Source: a virus. Taken from it: DNA of 21,165 nt. Each line of letters starts with the position of its first letter. Positions within the stretch are counted from its first letter, which is position 1. Under the pieces are notes generated by a model. That model was not told the origin of the DNA. It saw only the letters and a list, made by a program, of their open reading frames with translations, and ran no database searches. Location of the stretch: positions 1 to 21,165 of the IMG/VR virus record IMGVR_UViG_3300017786_000184; one strand, given 5' to 3'. Below are positions 5,864 through 17,038 of this stretch, one piece after another. A program made the position numbers and the translations under genes.

Positions 5864-6310
5864 TTACTCGACTATAAATTGAATTGTTGGGTAAGGTGAA
5901 CTGGCTGAGTATGGCATCCCTGCCCACTCAATAGTTGAATACAAATAACCAAGTTGATCAACTGCTGTTGCTGTTCTTGATGCGTAATCTTCGTAAGGAA
6001 AAACTTGACCATTAAAAATAAGTCGTCTCCACTCTTGCGTGACACCAGTGTAAGTTGACCCCTGCTGGTATGGTTTCCTTGTGGTAAATAAAATTTGTGA
6101 GGGCGTGCCCTGAGTTGCAGCTAATTCATAAACAGTTATATCTGCACCTGATAGCCCAGTGTAGGGTGAAGGTGATTGTGTAACACCACCATAGCTTTGC
6201 GCTCTATGACCACGCCTAACTGAATCATAAGCTGATTGCCCTTGCACCACAGTCAAAACACCAACAGTGAGTGGATCAACCTTGCTAGATATTGCGGCCG
6301 CACTAAACAT
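5864..6310 (-). CDS. hypothetical virion protein
   Basis: This 148-residue protein starts at the ATG at 6310, which shares a base with the stop of the long fibre gene (TGATG). A TTG one codon upstream is possible but less likely. The protein is rich in Tyr, Ser, Thr and Gly (GVTQSPSPYTGLSGADITVY, RKPYQQGSTYTGVTQEWRRL) and looks beta-rich. No catalytic motif or named family is seen. Being coupled to the fibre gene, it may be a fibre-associated or tail protein. Confidence 0.7.
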   Translation of the reverse strand: MFSAAAISSKVDPLTVGVLTVVQGQSAYDSVRRGHRAQSYGGVTQSPSPYTGLSGADITVYELAATQGTPSQILFTTRKPYQQGSTYTGVTQEWRRLIFNGQVFPYEDYASRTATAVDQLGYLYSTIEWAGMPYSASSPYPTIQFIVE

Positions 6311-8373
6311 CAAGCAAGCCCCGAGCCAAACACAACAATTTTGTCAGCATCAGTCACTAAGAATTCTGCAACACCGCCTTTTGCCACAGTAACAGTTGAA
6401 GAACTTGCTGGGGCAACGCCTGATATTAATTTATAAAAACCTGTGCCACCTGAAGTTGTGCAAGATATATCAACATCACCAGCGTTCACAACAAGCCATG
6501 TTTTGCCCTTGTCACCTATTAACACATCTGGAAACGTGTAAACTGGTGAACCAGTTGTTGCTGTGTTTATGGTCTTTTCACCAACATGACCAGACATTGT
6601 TTCATTGCCTGTTTGAATGTTGTGTGTCAATGAAGCTGTGATTGTGCTTGGTACAGATGTAAGATAACCAGCACTGGCATGATTGCCCCAGCCATGCGCT
6701 GTTGTTGCTTTTGTACCTATGTCAGCAACGTCTTGGCCGTCAACAGTCCCAGATACAGTTATATTGCCGTTTACATCTATACCTGTAGCTGTAGTAGCTA
6801 GTTTTGCTGTAGCATGACTAGCCGCATTGTGCCAGATTTGTACTGCTCCACCTTCAACACCTTTTATGAATTTGTTGCTATTTGTATCTTCTAAAGTAAG
6901 ATCATCAGCTTGGAGTATAAGGTTGCCTGAGCCAGTTTCCTTAATTGTAGAATTACCGTTGGAGCTTTTATGGGTAATTGTTAAGGCATTACTAGCTCCA
7001 AGAGTTATTGTTTCATCATCACCTAATGACAAGCCATCAGCAGTTACAGTGCCATTGACATTTAAACCAGCAGACACAACCTCCGCACGAACATTAGTTT
7101 CATCAGTTCCACAATAGAACCTTGTACCAGTGTGTTGGTTGCCTACCTTGATTCTTGTGTAGCTAACAGTTGTATCAGTGCTTAACTCTGAATCAATCTT
7201 TACACCACCTTCATCGTGAACAGTAATTTTAGAAAGGTCTCTGTTATTACCATGGATAACTACTGCATCGCCTTTGATGTTTAAGTTACCACCGCCTTGC
7301 TCCAGTAGATTTGTTGTAGTACCAGATGTTTTAATAGAAAACGACTCTGTGCCATCTGTTTGCTCAAAGCGTAACTCATGGCCGTTCTGGATAGTGATGT
7401 TGCCATCAGTTTCCATGTTACCGTTTAGAGCTATGCTTGTAGCAGTTACAGTGCCTGTTACATTAATACCAGCCGCAACACTGCCTGTACCATCAGAAGT
7501 TTTTAACTTGATATTTCCATCAGAATAAAGAGCCACATCTTTGTTGTCGAAAGTTTGAATAAAACTTTTTGAAGCGGCTGAATTTGTGATGTTTATGTTT
7601 TCGCCTTGTATCTGTAAATTTGCGCTATTATTATTTTCTTTTATAATAGATTTATTAGTTGTGCCGTCATGGTATATCTGAAAGTCAGTCCCATCGCCAA
7701 GTTTAATTCTCTCATCATCACCCATGACAAGACCATCAGCAGTTACAGTGCCTGTTACGTCTATACCAGAGACTGTTGTTTCTATTTTTTTACTATGGTT
7801 ATGATAAAGCTCAACTGCTCCGTCTGTTATAAACTTTGCTTTAGTTTCACTGTTGGCTGAATTAACTATTTCTAATTCGTCAGCACCTATTTTTAAACTA
7901 CCTGTGCCATCGCCTGAATTACCTTCTAAGATATAACTGTGATTACCGTTATGATAGATTTCTAAGTCACTACCTGTACCAAGAGTAATCTTTTCGCCAT
8001 CACCCATGACAAGACCGTCAGCAGTAATAAAGCCAGATACGGTTGTAGCACCAGTTAGATTACCTGTTACATTACCAGTTACATTACCTGTTACGTCGCC
8101 TGTAAGTGATCCTGTTAAGGCTGTAGCGTTAAGTGTTCCAGCTACAGTAACAGTATTAGTGCCGACAGTTATAAGGTCAGGATCACCTACAGTACCTATG
8201 TTGCTGCCGTCTATTTTGACATTATCAACAACTATTGCCGTAAGTGTTGTGCCGCCACTCAACAAAGAATCTAAGTTGGTTAGATTCGTATTGATGCTTG
8301 TGCCCCAAGTGCCTTCCGCACCGTCTATCTCTGGTAGAATAAGGCTATAATTGCTTGTAGAACCGTCTGCCAT
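6310..8373 (-). CDS. long repetitive tail fibre protein
   Basis: A 687-residue protein is typical of marine phage tail fibres. The N-terminal 40 residues (YSLILPEIDGAEGTWGTSIN) form an attachment motif. A GDVTGNVTGNVTGNLTG tract is at 92-108. Several copies of a module follow that begins TADGLVMGD, then ITLG or IKLG, then LEIYHNG or FQIYHDG, at about 117, 212 and 444, with a diverged copy near 307. Residues 543-570 read VDGQDVADIGTKATTAHGWG, a motif common in distal fibres. No S74 chaperone is attached. It should form a trimeric host-recognition fibre. The ribosome binding site is AGGAAACAATTATG. The next fibre gene ends nine bases upstream of this start. Confidence 0.85.
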   Translation of the reverse strand: MADGSTSNYSLILPEIDGAEGTWGTSINTNLTNLDSLLSGGTTLTAIVVDNVKIDGSNIGTVGDPDLITVGTNTVTVAGTLNATALTGSLTGDVTGNVTGNVTGNLTGATTVSGFITADGLVMGDGEKITLGTGSDLEIYHNGNHSYILEGNSGDGTGSLKIGADELEIVNSANSETKAKFITDGAVELYHNHSKKIETTVSGIDVTGTVTADGLVMGDDERIKLGDGTDFQIYHDGTTNKSIIKENNNSANLQIQGENINITNSAASKSFIQTFDNKDVALYSDGNIKLKTSDGTGSVAAGINVTGTVTATSIALNGNMETDGNITIQNGHELRFEQTDGTESFSIKTSGTTTNLLEQGGGNLNIKGDAVVIHGNNRDLSKITVHDEGGVKIDSELSTDTTVSYTRIKVGNQHTGTRFYCGTDETNVRAEVVSAGLNVNGTVTADGLSLGDDETITLGASNALTITHKSSNGNSTIKETGSGNLILQADDLTLEDTNSNKFIKGVEGGAVQIWHNAASHATAKLATTATGIDVNGNITVSGTVDGQDVADIGTKATTAHGWGNHASAGYLTSVPSTITASLTHNIQTGNETMSGHVGEKTINTATTGSPVYTFPDVLIGDKGKTWLVVNAGDVDISCTTSGGTGFYKLISGVAPASSSTVTVAKGGVAEFLVTDADKIVVFGSGLA
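8050..8112 (-). repeat. 12-nt tandem repeat encoding VTGN units
   Basis: This stretch encodes GSLTGDVTGNVTGNVTGNLTG, with a four-residue period (TGxV/L) and matching 12-nt DNA repeats (plus strand TTACCTGTTACA-like units). Such short repeats expand and contract by slippage and set fibre length. Confidence 0.7.
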
Positions 8374-9598: not shown

Positions 9599-9972
9599 GC
9601 ATCTATCATCTGTATTTGTAACTGGTTAGCGTCTATCTGTATCTGTGTGGCGTTGTTGCCATCCAGAGAGCTTGTTAGCTGCGAAGCCACAAGCTGATTG
9701 CCGCCAGTTGCTGCATCATATATAGCCACATGAGTAATCACGCCAAATGACTCGCCTAGATTCCAATTTAATGCCACAGGGTTTTTCACTGTGTTACCGC
9801 CATCAATAACAAAATTTGATTGCTTCCTAGCATACGATGCCGTTGCTACCTCATTACTAACAGTTGGTGCAGCTGTATGCAGCCCAACATACAACGCTGT
9901 AGGTGCAGTGTAACTTACACCTGTAAACACATGGTTCAATATTGCAGCATCTAAAAAGTTAGTAAATGCCAT
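9595..9972 (-). CDS. conserved phage tail/virion protein
   Basis: A 125-residue protein beginning MAFTNFLDAAILNHVFTGVS, then YTAPTALYVGLHTAAPT, YARKQSNF and GVITHVAIYDAATGGNQLVA. This is a recognisable and widespread small phage structural family, often annotated as a tail or fibre-linked protein. It is beta-rich and has no catalytic motif. The start codon overlaps the adaptor stop (TAATG), so the two are translationally coupled. Confidence 0.75.
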   Translation of the reverse strand: MAFTNFLDAAILNHVFTGVSYTAPTALYVGLHTAAPTVSNEVATASYARKQSNFVIDGGNTVKNPVALNWNLGESFGVITHVAIYDAATGGNQLVASQLTSSLDGNNATQIQIDANQLQIQMIDA

Positions 9973-10619
9973 TAATATATCCTTCTCGACAAACCTGTAT
10001 CTAAGCCTCTACGACGCATTCTAAGGCCGTCTACGCCAAATTCAGCTGCCTGCCCTTCATCCTCTAGCCTTTTAATTGATGCAGCGTACAGCTGTGCGAA
10101 GACCGTCATACGCTGGTCGTCATTTAAATATGGAGCAGAATGCAGCAGCGATCCGTACAAATAAATATCAGGAGCTTCAGTAAGCAGCCAATTAGACGTA
10201 TTGCTGTCACTCAATGCAGGTATCTTCTTGTAATAATGCAGCTCAAACGTCGTTGATGCGTTAGGCGATGGAAATACCTCAAACTGGTCCTCAATATGGC
10301 AGTAAAATTTAGGCGTTCCTGCTTCATTTGCTCGATTCATCCTGCGCTCATCCATAGCTGCTACGCTTAACAACTCTAATGCCTTTGTGTTGCCTGTAGT
10401 TATGCGTAAACGCTTCGTCTGAACCCAATCAGACGGTCTGGCGATGTATCTGTCGGTAGATGTTGTTGTCACCCTATCTTCCATCTGCCAATGACGCAAA
10501 TCTCTGTCGATTTGTGCCTGTGCTAAATCAATAAACGTAGGAATTACAGATGTTAAGTCTGTTCTGTTCAAATAATCAGCAATTGTTGTCTTTAACTCTG
10601 CAAATGTTGTTATAGCCAT
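9972..10619 (-). CDS. head-tail adaptor-like protein
   Basis: A 215-residue mostly helical protein. The N-terminus (TFAELKTTIADYLNRTDLTS, then FIDLAQAQIDRDLRHWQME) followed by RYIARPSDWVQTKRLRI and a helical C-terminal half (QLYAASIKRLEDEGQAAEFG) fits the podovirus adaptor/connector family that docks under the portal ring. No portal gene is present next to it. The ATG at 10619 has only a weak site (ACAGAGACTGAATTATG). A putative extended -10 lies 26 bases upstream of the start. Confidence 0.75.
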   Translation of the reverse strand: MAITTFAELKTTIADYLNRTDLTSVIPTFIDLAQAQIDRDLRHWQMEDRVTTTSTDRYIARPSDWVQTKRLRITTGNTKALELLSVAAMDERRMNRANEAGTPKFYCHIEDQFEVFPSPNASTTFELHYYKKIPALSDSNTSNWLLTEAPDIYLYGSLLHSAPYLNDDQRMTVFAQLYAASIKRLEDEGQAAEFGVDGLRMRRRGLDTGLSRRIY

Positions 10620-10673: not shown

Positions 10674-13600
10674 TTAGTTAGCTATCTGCAGCAAGCCTTG
10701 GTTAGCCTCTGGCAATAATGGTATTTCTACTTTTGGTGTTTTAGGCTTTAACGGTAAATAGAACGTCAAAGCACCCATAGCAGCTAATGCAGCGTAACCA
10801 ATTCTTGGTGCTACCTCTTCCTGCACAGGTTCAGGCAGTGAATAGTAAACATCTTGTATTTGCGTAATTCTTTTTGCTAAGTTCTCTTTGATTGAAACAT
10901 TTGTCAGTGGATCAGGCGTATTCATAACGAAATTTATAGCAGGCATCAATACTTCACCAGCTTGCTCGCCTAACAATGCTGCAGCGTCTTTTGTAGATTG
11001 ATTATAATCACCAAAGAAACTAGGCTTGTCCATCTGAGCTTGGAATCGGCCAGATTCTGGCTCGATTGCGCTGCCTAAGCCGCCAACAAGCATCCTAAAT
11101 CCATCTTCAAAGGTTCTAGCTACTAGCCTTGCTGCATCTTGTAATGCCTCAGCCTCAACCTTAGCTACGACAGCAGGTCCATATTCGTATGTGCTACTAG
11201 GTGGTGCAGCGAGTTTTTCCAAGACAGGTTTTGCTTTTTGTATTGCTGCATTAGATTCTTTAGCTGACTCGGTGATTGGCTTGCTTACAGATATATCGTC
11301 AAATAAACCATCAGTGTCTGCATACGGCCCTAATATCTCTTCAACAAGATTATCATAAATAACCAACTGTCTTTCTTGAGGCACTGTTGCCCCAGCGTAA
11401 TTTTCCGAGGCAAAAAGCGGAGTTTCATCTACTGGCTCGCCAAAAAGACCTTTCCTTAAAGGTATACTACGCACCTCATCTCTTAACTCTACATTCCTCG
11501 CCTCTACTTCTCCTGCAGTGTCTGTGTATACTCTGAATGGCGACAATATTTCATCTGGATTAAGATTACGCTGCACCTCTCGCATCTTTTCGTTTATCAA
11601 ACCACGATTTTTTTGTGTTCTTAAATCTCCAGCTGCTTGTGCCTCTTCTATTGTGCTTTGTGAAATATCTCCTTGTTTCAAGGCAGCCTCATACTTCGCA
11701 GCTAATGCAGTCAATCTATCTATTTCAGCCTGACCGCCCTTATTAACATACTGATCAGAAATTGTTAAAACTTGATCAATGTACTCTGGATCAGAACCAC
11801 GAGCAAAACCTTCACGCGCTTGTATTGCGTGCTGCAGCTCATGCAGTAAAAGACTTCTAAATTCTTTTTGTGTAACGCCTGCCCCTATATATATTTTATC
11901 TGCACCACCAAGGTAATAGGCTTCGTTGGGTGGCAACTCATTAGTAATAGCAACCTTTATATCCTTTAAGCTGCCAGCAACGCGAGAGCCGCGCACTTTT
12001 TCATCAGCATCCAAGTCACCGTAATCAGCCAAATATCTAGGCTCGCCATATTTTTCTATAAGATCAGACTGCTCCATCGTTAGTGGTTCACGCGGCATAC
12101 CGTACCTATCCGCATAATGCCTATCGTCAGCAATATCCTTTAATTCTTTTGGCTGGTACTGATCTAACAGCTCTGGGTCGTCAAAAAACTGCCACAATTT
12201 ATATGTTTCTTCTGTAAGATCGTCATCAGTAGCACCTACAAGCTCAATTCTTTCTGACAAAAAATCTATAAGGTTATTCTCTTCTAAAAAATCTAAATTG
12301 ATTTTGCTGTTTGTGTTTGGTAGCTCTGTACGCCATTTGTTGTCAGCACCGCTTCTCTCCCATCCTGTTGCACGAAATATGCTTGTCTTGTCTTGCCCTT
12401 CATCTTCCATGCGTTTAGCGGTTTCTAGCATATCTTTTCTGCTGAATCCTAGCTTAGAAGCTAGGCCAACAATTGATGCATCAGCCTCTTCAGACTGCCC
12501 TGCAGCCAACAAACCACTAGCACCAGCTACACCTGTGACACCTGACATTATGTTTGATGACTCGTCATCTAAACCTGCAGCGTTAACGGACCTAATATTC
12601 TTACCATCTAATGCTATGTAGCTATACTGATCCTCGCCAAACATTGGCTTGCCATCTGGCCTTTCATAAAGATTTGTATATCTAATAGTGTCGTAACCAG
12701 AATCCTTAATTGCTTTTCTAATCCTACCTAGATATTTTTTATTGAGATCAGAATTCATGTAGCCAAACGGTTGCAAGTCACCTGTTGTTTCATATTCTTT
12801 CAACGCTTTATTAGTTAAGGTTGGTGACTTTAGGTTTTCTTTGCGTCTAACTTCTACAATTTCATTTTTGATTTCTGTAATATTTTTTATAAGTTTTTGG
12901 AATTTAGGGTCATTACTGTGTAGCAAGCTACCCTTTTCAATGTTCAATATACCGTTAATAACTGTGTCCGATTCATTCCAATTACCAAAATCTGGCAACT
13001 CAAGCACCTCACCTTTTTTAAGATAAAAAGGCATTATCCTTGATTCTGTTCCTGCTATTGGAAAAAACTCACCCTCAGCTGGCTCAACAAATAGATTAGG
13101 GTCATCTGGCAGCGTATCGCCATCTTCAAGATCATATGGGAAAGCCTTTGATTTTAGTCGCTCATTTGCATGGCCTTTTGCACCAACATGGAAACCAATA
13201 TCATTTTGAAAAAGGTCCAAATTATCATCATCAAATGTTTCAGTGCCATGATAGTAAATGTTATCGGTGTCAAAACCTTTGTCTGCCAGCCTAGCAACAC
13301 TTGGCAGCTTGGCTAAAATACTGGCATCAGTATCCTCAGATTGAGCTGCAGTTAATAAACCAGTAGCTGCTGCTGTGCCACCAAACCCAGCCAAGATATT
13401 ATCAGTGTCATCTTGTTCGCCTTTTGCATTAACTGATCGAATATCTTTTGGATCAAACATTGCCAGTGTTGTTTGCACACCATCATCATTTTCTGCAAGC
13501 AACATACTGTCGTAACCTTTTTCTTTTAAGAAGTTTACAACTTCAGGCTTTTCATAGACTAAATACTTGCCTTTTCGATATGCGTCTATTACATAGGGGT

Positions 13601-15233
13601 CTTTTGTTTCGTCTAAAAAAAACTGCCCTGTAGGGTTATCAAATTGATCTAAAACTGGTTGTTCACCGCCTTGTAATTTAAGTATCTCATCTACAATTTC
13701 TGGTTCGTTTTGCGGATCAAATGTCTTTTTGGCTCTCGTAAAAACAGGGTAAATTGAACTGTCTGCCATTCTCTCGGCTTCAATAAATTTTCTACGTTCA
13801 GGGTAATAAACTTCTTGGTAATATTTGCTTTTTTCTTCTTCAGTTGTTATCTCTTTTATTATTTTTTCATGCTTTTCATCAAAGCGTTTTCTTTCGGCTT
13901 TTAAGCTGTCAAGTGTGCTTGTGTCACCCTGCCTCTCTGTAAATTTGCCTTTACCTAACCAGTCGTTAGCAAACTGTGGGTCTGGCGTTAAAAATATCAA
14001 TCCGTCGGAATAGCCAGCTTTAAACTTATCTATGTCTTGTTTGCTGGCATGATAAAAAACGCGGTCGGTGTTGAAGCCTTTTTCTTTGAGTTTAGAAATA
14101 TTAGCTAATTTTGCTATAGGATTAGCATCCGCCTCTTCGCTGCCTAACGCTGCAGCTCCCAGCAAACCTAATGATGCAGCAGTAGCTAATGGATTTGCGC
14201 TTACCTTAATACCTTTAGCTTCTAACCTACGCAGCAAGTCTTCATCAATAATACCGCCATAAGGTGACACTTCAGCTGCTCGCCTCATATCGCTAAACGC
14301 TTCTCTTGGCCCAGAATCACCCATGCTTAAGGGTCGGCCATAAATACCACCATCAGATTTGTATTGTGCAGTAGGGTCTAAATCTATGAGAGTTGCATCA
14401 GTGTCTAACCGCCCGATAAAGTCGCCAGCAACAGCGTCTGGATAAATAATATTGCCCTGACCAGATAGGTTGCCAGCATCAACATCAAGCAAGCCAACAT
14501 TTTGGAATCCCATCGTAGGTGCAGTTAATTGTGATGGATCAGCGATTGCAAGCCTTGCCTGCGGTAAAGATATGCCACCCTTATCTCGGTAGCCCTTGTC
14601 CATTATCTGCTGCTGTATAAATTTTCTGACTCTATCAGGCTGCATAGCGATTTGTGCTGGTGCTCTTGGGTCGTCGATACCAACAAAATCTGGCACTCTA
14701 TCCCTTATATCAGCATTGAGTTTTTTCTTAACAGCTGCAGGCATATTAGCCGACGCATAAGACATCATAACGCCAGATGTCATTTCACCAGAAAAATCAC
14801 TGCCTGAAGGTGTCATTCGCCAATTAATGAGCGCAGGGTTTCTGCCATATTGTTGTTTTAAATTTGAACCAGCTTGCAGCATTTGATTTATAGGGATTGT
14901 CCCAGATGCCCACAACGGACCATCTTTCATAAAGTCTTGGCCGCCAGTTAGGCTTACTGGATAGGCTAAATTTTTATCCCCGATACCTACTACCTGACCA
15001 CCTGCTGCTGTACGGTCAGACATTGTTGAGAGATATGGGTAGCCTTCTAGGTCGCTAAGTGTAACTGTTGGCGAAGCATCATAACCGCCCTCAACAACAG
15101 GCTTGCCATACTGATCTCTGGGCTTAACCTTCGGCACACTTCTAAGCTCAAAGCCTTCGTCATATTCTTCAGGCTCAAATATATAATCAAGTATACCTTT
15201 CGCTCTTGCACCGATGCCTTTTGCTTTTGACAT
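10674..15233 (-). CDS. large polyvalent protein: two ADP-ribosyltransferase-like domains plus HExxH protease-like domain
   Basis: A 1519-residue protein, starting at the ATG at 15233 (an upstream ATG at 15326 would overlap the 88-residue gene). Order of parts: conserved N-terminal region about 55-340 (YPYLSTMSDRTAAGG); ART-like domain 1 from about 391 (RVFYHASKQDIDKF, GLIFLTPDP) to 602 (DIRSVNA); ART-like domain 2 from about 658 (NIYYHGTETF) to 884 (NIRSVNA); then an LPD23-like segment (FRATGWERSGADNKW, about 953-967) leading to LLLHELQHAIQAREGFARGS (1128-1147) and AGEVEARN (1240-1247). HELQH with the later Glu suggests a gluzincin-like zinc site. A hydrophobic stretch lies near 1478-1494. 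Families of polyvalent ART and protease domains act on host proteins after injection; that role here is inferred. Confidence 0.8.
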   Translation of the reverse strand: MSKAKGIGARAKGILDYIFEPEEYDEGFELRSVPKVKPRDQYGKPVVEGGYDASPTVTLSDLEGYPYLSTMSDRTAAGGQVVGIGDKNLAYPVSLTGGQDFMKDGPLWASGTIPINQMLQAGSNLKQQYGRNPALINWRMTPSGSDFSGEMTSGVMMSYASANMPAAVKKKLNADIRDRVPDFVGIDDPRAPAQIAMQPDRVRKFIQQQIMDKGYRDKGGISLPQARLAIADPSQLTAPTMGFQNVGLLDVDAGNLSGQGNIIYPDAVAGDFIGRLDTDATLIDLDPTAQYKSDGGIYGRPLSMGDSGPREAFSDMRRAAEVSPYGGIIDEDLLRRLEAKGIKVSANPLATAASLGLLGAAALGSEEADANPIAKLANISKLKEKGFNTDRVFYHASKQDIDKFKAGYSDGLIFLTPDPQFANDWLGKGKFTERQGDTSTLDSLKAERKRFDEKHEKIIKEITTEEEKSKYYQEVYYPERRKFIEAERMADSSIYPVFTRAKKTFDPQNEPEIVDEILKLQGGEQPVLDQFDNPTGQFFLDETKDPYVIDAYRKGKYLVYEKPEVVNFLKEKGYDSMLLAENDDGVQTTLAMFDPKDIRSVNAKGEQDDTDNILAGFGGTAAATGLLTAAQSEDTDASILAKLPSVARLADKGFDTDNIYYHGTETFDDDNLDLFQNDIGFHVGAKGHANERLKSKAFPYDLEDGDTLPDDPNLFVEPAEGEFFPIAGTESRIMPFYLKKGEVLELPDFGNWNESDTVINGILNIEKGSLLHSNDPKFQKLIKNITEIKNEIVEVRRKENLKSPTLTNKALKEYETTGDLQPFGYMNSDLNKKYLGRIRKAIKDSGYDTIRYTNLYERPDGKPMFGEDQYSYIALDGKNIRSVNAAGLDDESSNIMSGVTGVAGASGLLAAGQSEEADASIVGLASKLGFSRKDMLETAKRMEDEGQDKTSIFRATGWERSGADNKWRTELPNTNSKINLDFLEENNLIDFLSERIELVGATDDDLTEETYKLWQFFDDPELLDQYQPKELKDIADDRHYADRYGMPREPLTMEQSDLIEKYGEPRYLADYGDLDADEKVRGSRVAGSLKDIKVAITNELPPNEAYYLGGADKIYIGAGVTQKEFRSLLLHELQHAIQAREGFARGSDPEYIDQVLTISDQYVNKGGQAEIDRLTALAAKYEAALKQGDISQSTIEEAQAAGDLRTQKNRGLINEKMREVQRNLNPDEILSPFRVYTDTAGEVEARNVELRDEVRSIPLRKGLFGEPVDETPLFASENYAGATVPQERQLVIYDNLVEEILGPYADTDGLFDDISVSKPITESAKESNAAIQKAKPVLEKLAAPPSSTYEYGPAVVAKVEAEALQDAARLVARTFEDGFRMLVGGLGSAIEPESGRFQAQMDKPSFFGDYNQSTKDAAALLGEQAGEVLMPAINFVMNTPDPLTNVSIKENLAKRITQIQDVYYSLPEPVQEEVAPRIGYAALAAMGALTFYLPLKPKTPKVEIPLLPEANQGLLQIAN

Positions 15234-15237
15234 TACA

Positions 15238-15504
15238 CTACCACTTTGTACGATTAGCCCAGTAAGCTGCTGACATCTTGCCTTTCTTGATGTTCTTAGC
15301 GTGTCTGGCTTTGAATGATTTAGCACGTTTGGTCATGGTCTTGTCGCCAGTTTTACCCTGCTGACCGAACCGTATAGTCTTCACCTCGTCGCCATCCTTA
15401 GCCACCACAACGTGCGATTTAGTTTTATGGCTTGGTGTGCGCTTAGGTTTGTTAAAGCCGCTAACGCCTGCCCTAGCCAATCTAGGGTCTTTTTTCTTAG
15501 GCAC
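15238..15504 (-). CDS. basic conserved phage protein (DUF6321-like)
   Basis: An 88-residue, strongly basic protein starting at a GTG, six bases after the TTA stop of the tiny peptide gene begins and with AAAGGG nine bases upstream. The sequence VSGFNKPKRTPSHKTKSHVV, then KTIRFGQQG and KARHAKNIKKGKMSAAYW, is typical of a small family common in marine phages, which I recall as DUF6321, though I cannot check. Function unknown; nucleic acid binding is plausible from charge. It sits in a run of three basic genes between the large terminase and the polyvalent protein. Confidence 0.75.
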   Translation of the reverse strand: MPKKKDPRLARAGVSGFNKPKRTPSHKTKSHVVVAKDGDEVKTIRFGQQGKTGDKTMTKRAKSFKARHAKNIKKGKMSAAYWANRTKW

Positions 15505-15752: not shown

Positions 15753-15766
15753 CCCGATTATACCAC
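15753..15766 (-). promoter_or_regulatory. putative late promoter, extended -10 (copy 2)
   Basis: The minus strand reads GTGGTATAATCGGG, identical to the copy at 2605-2618. The TATAAT hexamer overlaps the terminase TAA stop. A transcript starting about 7 bases downstream would have a short leader with GGGAG before the 53-residue basic gene. No clear -35. Confidence 0.6.
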
Positions 15767-17038
15767 GCCTTGGATATTTCTCTTAATAGGCGTTCCCCAA
15801 TCTCTTTTGGGCTTGTTGCCTACAGCTAGATACCTGAATGCATCTGCAGCGTGTGATGTCCAATCATGCAGCGGCCTGCCACGAAACGATTGATTCTTCT
15901 CATCATAGTCACGACGGTACTGTGACAAACAGTCTATACCCCTGCTGCACTTTTCCTTGTCAAACCAGCAAGTAGCAAGCATGGACCTTGATGCCTGTAT
16001 ACCATCATCAATCATCAGCTGCGGAGCTATCGTGATGGGCCTTACGCCAAGATTACCCAGAGTTTCTAGCCTAGACTTGCCTGTGCCTAACTCTCTCACC
16101 CTGACATCGTGCGGCAGCACATGGTCGCCATACACATAACCTTTGCTGTTTAATACTTGTACATAGTGGTCCAGACCAACACCGCTGCACTCGTAGTAAT
16201 CTATCAGCCTAACCTCTGCACCAACAAACTGAGCGAACCAGATAGCTGTAGAATCGCCAACACCTAAGTCCCAAGCCGTCGTAACAGGCACAGCAGGGTC
16301 GTAAGGCACTGCAGCAATACGATTAGACTGCCTGCAATCACGCATCTCTGTGGCGTAGTATGCACCGTCTACATGGACCAAAAAGTCGCCTTCCCAAATA
16401 TGGTCATAGGATTCAGGTCGCAGGTTAAAATCTTCTTGTCTAGCGAGCTCTAGCACATTAGGAAAGAATGGATTATCACGCCAGTTGATCTCACATATCT
16501 TCATGCCATCAGGCGATGACTCCCTGAATCGTTTATGCGTTGATGAATTTTTGTTCTCTGGATTCCATGTTACCCATATCTCTGAGTTTTCTTCTCGGAC
16601 CGTAGGGATTAATTTGGACCATGCAGTCTCTGTAACGCCCTCTGCCTCATCTACCCAGCACAAGAGTATCTTTGCCTTAGACTTGATGGAATCTAGGTTA
16701 CGACGCAGCCCAGAGAACGTGTAAGTGATCTTACCGTCTTTGGACCTGATGTAAGTTGCACCTATCTCATAGTAGTCAAGTAAGAAGTCGCAGCTCCTGA
16801 TGGCCGATTTAACCTCCTCTAGCGACGATTCTTCTAGGCTGTTCAAATGCTCACGCCCACAGAGAATCTGTCCCTGACGGCCTTCCATGCCCCACATATA
16901 CCCTCTTACAGCTGTCATCAGTGCAAAGCTAACAGTCTTGCCTGATCCACGACCACCCCATGCACACCGATACCTAGCATCACCTTGAAATAGGCTGACT
17001 AGTTTGGGAGGCAGCTGAATGGTAGCAATGTTAGTCAT
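15758..17038 (-). CDS. terL: terminase large subunit
   Basis: A 426-residue DNA-packaging ATPase/nuclease of the Terminase_3 (Sf6-like/PBSX-like) kind. Walker A is GGRGSGKT (28-35) with the preceding CAW. Walker B is ILLCWVDE (124-131), with D130 and E131. A coupling motif VTWNP is at 156-160. The C-terminal nuclease shows WDLGVGDSTAIWF (D257), LPHDVR (D311) and HDWTSHAADAFRYL (D399) as the metal-binding acids. The ATG at 17038 overlaps the end of the small subunit by eight bases. The motor moves DNA into the prohead and cuts the concatemer. Length is usual for the family. Confidence 0.95.
   Translation of the reverse strand: MTNIATIQLPPKLVSLFQGDARYRCAWGGRGSGKTVSFALMTAVRGYMWGMEGRQGQILCGREHLNSLEESSLEEVKSAIRSCDFLLDYYEIGATYIRSKDGKITYTFSGLRRNLDSIKSKAKILLCWVDEAEGVTETAWSKLIPTVREENSEIWVTWNPENKNSSTHKRFRESSPDGMKICEINWRDNPFFPNVLELARQEDFNLRPESYDHIWEGDFLVHVDGAYYATEMRDCRQSNRIAAVPYDPAVPVTTAWDLGVGDSTAIWFAQFVGAEVRLIDYYECSGVGLDHYVQVLNSKGYVYGDHVLPHDVRVRELGTGKSRLETLGNLGVRPITIAPQLMIDDGIQASRSMLATCWFDKEKCSRGIDCLSQYRRDYDEKNQSFRGRPLHDWTSHAADAFRYLAVGNKPKRDWGTPIKRNIQGVV

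Follow-up and report, generated by a model that had tools for sequence, protein, structure and literature searches.

Phage polyvalent proteins were described by Iyer et al. 2017 (PMC5512222), who inferred that they are packaged into virions, injected and modify host proteins, and who predicted self-processing and, for kinases, recombination of cassettes. For the ART-PolyVal/Tox-ART-HYD2 clade, an H-Y-D residue set has been described, with H in strand 1, Y in strand 2 and D in strand 5. Splitting of injected multi-domain phage proteins and exchange of their effectors have been proposed before, not shown. The main text of Iyer et al. makes no mention of linkers or signal peptides, and a literature search on whether polyvalent or ejection proteins of phages have signal peptides, with most subscription papers outside its scope, yielded nothing relevant. 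Here, we analyze a protein of this known class that carries a recurring linker, of which we found no description in the literature searched.

Gene position and architecture

The window, i.e., the whole 21-kb stretch of virus DNA analyzed here, corresponds to positions 1 to 21,165 of IMG/VR record IMGVR_UViG_3300017786_000184 and comes from a marine-type phage. The gene lies on its minus strand with the coordinates and the 1519-residue length given in the earlier note, and an alternative start, GTG at 15326, would give 1550 aa. The placement between terL and the adaptor was confirmed by Pfam, and all motifs named in that note were located: YHA at 394-396, YHG at 661-663, IRSVNA at 598 and 880, HELQHAIQ at 1131-1138 and GEVEARNV at 1241-1248. 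The three linkers, the N-terminal carrier domain and the start of LPD23 directly after the third linker (~920) are additions to it. The features are as follows.

15758..17038, minus strand: terminase large subunit (terL), upstream; Pfam E 3e-22
15238..15504, minus strand: 88-aa upstream neighbour; PHROG 7595
10674..15233, minus strand: polyvalent protein gene of 1519 aa; start codon ATG at 15233, last stop-codon base at 10674
14199..15233, minus strand: N-terminal carrier domain, residues 1-345, unnamed; no Pfam match
14124..14201, minus strand: linker A, residues 345-370, SANPLATAASLGLLGAAALGSEEADA; preceded by K343
13401..14123, minus strand: ART1 cassette, residues 371-611; YHA, FDPKDIRSVNA; sub-threshold Pfam ART-PolyVal; homologues L077, L165, L093 and L009
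13323..13400, minus strand: linker B, residues 612-637, NILAGFGGTAAATGLLTAAQSEDTDA
12555..13322, minus strand: ART2 cassette, residues 638-893; YHG, ALDGKNIRSVNA; profile similarity, and AlphaFold model compared with viral ART-PolyVal models
12477..12554, minus strand: linker C, residues 894-919, NIMSGVTGVAGASGLLAAGQSEEADA
12279..12476, minus strand: LPD23, residues 920-985; starts directly after linker C with SIVG
11364..12278, minus strand: zincin-like metallopeptidase, residues 986-1290; HELQH 1131-1135, GEVEAR 1241-1246
10677..11363, minus strand: C-terminal domain, common to L002 and L009; hydrophobic segment near its end (1478-1496, by hydropathy)
9972..10619, minus strand: SU10-type head-tail adaptor, downstream; Pfam E 2e-36

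The 1519-aa protein is a cassette-built phage polyvalent protein. Members of this class combine at least two biochemically disparate domains in one polypeptide, here ART, LPD23 and metallopeptidase, and are encoded among the virion genes of phages with a terminase and a portal. The neighbours here are terL and the adaptor, and the contig of a close relative (L008) has portal-like and capsid-like ORFs by inspection. Domain, profile, model and neighbour-gene evidence together support the earlier reading, in which a late-gene slot encodes a polyvalent protein that has LPD23 and a zincin-like site besides its two ART-like domains. Neither megablast of the window against 50,697 phage records nor an NCBIfam search returned a match.

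The N-terminal domain, for which a PDB sequence search yielded nothing credible, was found by its profile at 69 viral-contig loci. Many of these are the N-domain alone, as solo ORFs of about 370-470 aa; others have different middle blocks, and L022 and L023 consist of the N-domain and a short tail. In L050 and L023, the carrier without large cassettes sits between terL and the adaptor, the same slot as in the window. The close relative L002, encoded on L008, matches residues 7-370 at 75% and residues 906-1515 at 45% (45-49% over the LPD23, protease and C-terminal domains), and its middle block is unrelated, yet is set between the same linkers.

Several neighbouring ORFs were noted in passing. 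The 88-aa protein is basic, and larger head-protein PHROGs also match it, over their inner or C-terminal regions. Adjacent ORFs at 707-1819 and 1822-2229 of the window correspond to the C- and N-terminal parts of one DNA-ejection-protein PHROG (4287), as if from a split gene. The terL-adaptor interval of the window is free of portal-like and capsid-like ORFs; in L008, those ORFs (6268-8370 and 9653-10603) also lie outside this interval, at a large distance downstream of tail-fibre and ejection-type genes. By inspection, an ORF at L002 530-1381 looks like an antirestriction protein of the ArdC type and carries a zincin motif of its own, HELIHWTGH.

ART-like domains and the LPD23-metallopeptidase

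Both ART-like domains of the earlier note stood, on different evidence. ART1 has a Pfam ART-PolyVal match at residues 490-603 (E 2.4e-5; 25.5 bits, below the gathering threshold of 31.2 bits) and is linked to ARTs through its relatives, whereas ART2 alone has no ART match in Pfam. With ART1, ART2 or the L009 ART as seed, profile searches reached the ARTs of numerous other phage proteins. In Pfam, two of these three seeds match ART-PolyVal (best E 1e-10), and one matches PARP at 1.4e-4. The AlphaFold model of ART2 (pLDDT 63.6, pTM 0.68), a check put forward in the earlier note, gave a divided answer. Against viral models there were 22 matches at E<=1e-3, several named ART-PolyVal, followed at E 0.01 by an N4-like vRNAP protein of Roseobacter phage RD-1410W1-01, but against the PDB there was none at E<=1e-3, the weak matches, many of them GNATs, including tankyrases and an Xre-RES toxin (TM 0.46 when scaled by target length). 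The model suggests, with fair confidence, that ART2 is an ART. In other searches, tblastn of the ART region found no match in the 50,697 phage records, a PDB sequence search with the ART profile gave chance-type matches only, and an ART alignment search of viral contigs gave seven weak loci only.

The YH motif, with the predicted catalytic H of strand 1, does not vary among the 13 aligned ARTs, and a D just before IRSVNA is retained in both domains. The position of the strand-2 Y is insecurely placed and possibly F in both, which, together with the sub-threshold Pfam score of ART1 and the missing one of ART2, would suit catalytically dead domains or binding modules; given the retained H and D, we regard this as unlikely for one or both domains. 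The tandem duplication suggested in the earlier note is not supported as a recent event: ART1 and ART2 are only 24% identical, BLASTP of the protein against itself found no internal repeat, and ART1 is closer to the ARTs of other phages (47% identity to L165, 38% to L077). Since the two ARTs lie in separate cassettes, each bounded by linkers, a better fit would be that they diverged long ago or were gained independently.

The LPD23-like segment proposed earlier matches Pfam LPD23 at residues 934-977 (E 3.8e-10; 39.8 bits, above the gathering threshold of 27 bits). The metalloprotease-like motif was likewise borne out, HELQHAIQ and the downstream G-E-x-E segment being invariant in 23 aligned relatives. 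The DUF6782 metallopeptidase match at 1095-1148 stays below gathering (E 4e-4; 20.1 vs 27 bits), as do those of L002 to DUF6782 (25.5 vs 27 bits) and to Peptidase_M78 (17 vs 22 bits, E 0.005). The model of this region (pLDDT 71.7, pTM 0.72, with the linker part at very low confidence) has strands at 204-228 followed by helices at 233-252 (HELQH) and 351-367 (second glutamate). Sequence and model together agree with a predicted zincin, in which an HExxH helix and a downstream Glu helix follow a three-stranded sheet. The structural check thus reproduced the strands and both zinc-site helices, but Foldseek against the PDB gave no significant match, that to PprI/IrrE being local (rmsd 1.5 over 44 columns, probability 0.47, E 3.1); IrrE is also the best PDB sequence match (E 0.014). 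In the LPD23-region relatives surveyed, LPD23 and a downstream HE[LIV]QH co-occur, also as solo proteins. The protein gp16 of Pseudomonas phage AF (L186 5994-12635; 2213 aa, annotated hypothetical) has both LPD22 and LPD23 and offers a cultured phage for studying the LPD23 module; a literature search for virion proteomics of phage AF or its relatives found none.

Linkers and cassette exchange

One linker lies ahead of each of ART1, ART2 and the LPD23-protease. As a group, the linkers have the n/h/c order of signal peptides, with a K/R, ~14-27 uncharged hydrophobic residues and an unusual, acidic c-region, [SP]-E-[ED]-A-[DE]-A|[SGA], as judged from their residues. Linker A of the window protein is K-bounded, while linkers B and C are left-bounded by D/E, unlike most. 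With a pattern (hydrophobic run and acidic A-x-A) that was written after examples had been seen, we found 46 linker-like sites, which fall in 24 of the 93 polyvalent ORFs left after de-duplication, compared with one site among 438 other ORFs, each 250 aa or longer; shuffled polyvalent sequences gave a mean of 3.4 sites and a maximum of 8. When the definition was made less directed, hydrophobic runs were followed by [AVTS]xA in 53/96 cases vs 20/169 controls (Fisher p 7e-14), and the motif-ending runs have a K/R left boundary in 43/51 cases vs 77/195 control runs (p 6e-9), p-values that are not strict since the sequences share ancestry. The remaining 69 of the 93 polyvalent ORFs have no linker by the pattern, and prophage-type relatives in a scan of genome contigs mostly lack it.

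The relatives L015 and L016 are 96.8% identical over 3.9 kb up to a joint and 77-92% identical beyond it. There, L015 has an extra block of ~606 bp (~200 aa), which may be methyltransferase-like by inspection; both junctions fall inside linker codons and share about 21 bp of linker DNA. L013 and L016 likewise differ by a cassette at the linkers, with 90% and 87% identity on the two sides. At the level of sequence, the architecture, its conservation and the enrichment of linkers are established, and these alignments establish that cassettes are gained and lost at linkers, suggesting that the recurring linkers mark where related phages swap domains and hinting at how phages rebuild putatively injected toolkits. 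A recurring S[LI]DYGAGxGxNAK block, at ~635-850 of the L009 protein and also in L013 and L017, looks by eye like a SAM-methyltransferase and serves as a swappable cassette.

The shared 21 bp and the cassette differences of L015 and L013 from L016 would also be explained if the linkers mattered as DNA only, as short homology patches for cassette recombination. However, codons vary at fixed residues and all four Ala codons are used at -1; therefore, the amino acid is what is kept. The h-regions differ while the c-region motif stays, and there is a left K/R bias, none of which DNA patches would need. A pure DNA-homology role is disfavoured by the codon variation, and we consider it very improbable.

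Proposed mechanism and known systems

We propose, with moderate confidence in the scheme as a whole, that the N-terminal (1-345) and C-terminal domains make up a carrier whose place among the late genes is fixed, and that between these two domains phages insert linker-preceded effector cassettes, here two ART-like domains and LPD23 with a zincin metallopeptidase. By analogy with the class (Iyer et al. 2017) and from the gene position, the protein would be packaged and injected, and its ARTs would modify host proteins. The linkers would act at the protein level, through cleavage after A-x-A and/or as membrane-inserting segments, freeing or positioning each effector, and the conserved c-region DNA may also serve recombination as a joint. 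Probably the linker has two roles, as a swap point and as a processing or membrane signal. A cleavage site is close to an even bet; a membrane or translocation segment without cleavage, the main alternative, seems somewhat unlikely. More tentative is the idea that these internal signal-peptide-like elements delimit effectors through recognition by host signal peptidase, another protease or the membrane, turning one injected chain into several effectors, with the same element as swap joint. Several N-in/C-out segments in one chain would be topologically awkward, a c-region this acidic is atypical of signal peptides, and both the D/E boundaries of linkers B and C and the ORFs without the pattern speak against the scheme.

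The cutting enzyme could instead be the LPD23-metallopeptidase of the same chain, in line with the self-processing that Iyer et al. propose for polyvalent zincins and infer for P1 DdrB, and a linker does abut LPD23 exactly. Yet linkers are intact in many proteins without HExxH (L011-L020, L028-L029), and a search through ten contigs of this kind, most of them fragments but including ones of 37.6 and 34 kb, turned up no LPD23-protease at another locus. Because of these two observations, any linker-cutting enzyme in those phages would act in trans, host signal peptidase being one candidate; the LPD23-protease as sole processor is disfavoured, and self-processing appears improbable.

The linkers could also be ordinary spacers, flexible and rich in Ala/Gly, whose SPEEA motifs cap helices and which have no processing or membrane role. 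Such spacers would account for the very low confidence of the linker in AlphaFold, i.e., for disorder, and [ST/P]-E-E is a common helix N-cap. This structural role is nevertheless unlikely in view of the invariant Ala at -1, the restricted -3 position, the K/R-bounded hydrophobic run and the near absence of such sites from the 438 other long ORFs. It is also doubtful that the protein stays in the cytoplasm and is merely encoded among virion genes. Our literature search for proteomics of the window protein or close relatives found none, which would leave room for that reading, but the terL-carrier-adaptor slot is conserved in several phages and packaging has been inferred at the level of the class (PMC5512222, PMC9503650).

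With a joint that is short, recurs and has defined residues, splitting and exchange can both be tested directly. The joint can also serve as a sequence handle for new effectors: any block that a pair of linkers flanks within one carrier is a candidate, as are, by this rule, the methyltransferase-like and other unnamed blocks in relatives.

Among known domains, the ARTs resemble the ART-PolyVal PF18760/Tox-ART-HYD2 clade in their YH start, IRSVNA end and profile and model matches, but differ in that ART1 scores below gathering, ART2 has no match and the strand-2 residue is insecure. The LPD23 segment agrees with LPD23 PF18838 with a HELQH metallopeptidase in its significant match and in the downstream HE[LIV]QH of surveyed relatives; here it directly follows a linker, whereas elsewhere it also occurs solo or in longer proteins such as phage AF gp16. 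With IrrE/PprI (Peptidase_M78) and DUF6782 zincins, the metallopeptidase shares HExxH and a downstream glutamate, a weak profile match and local structure matches, but it is sub-threshold, sits in a polyvalent chain behind LPD23 and has a large insert between the zinc-site helices. The linkers are like Sec signal peptides and signal peptidase I sites in their n(+)/h/c order, the helix breaker near -6 and A-x-A at -3/-1; unlike them, they are internal, repeated and strongly acidic in the c-region, with a putative cleavage. As a whole, the protein resembles the polyvalent proteins of Iyer et al. in its large size, its late locus and its combination of several domains, namely ART, LPD and zincin metallopeptidase, and it departs from them in its Pfam-nameless carrier N-domain and in the repeated signal-peptide-like linkers at its cassette joints.
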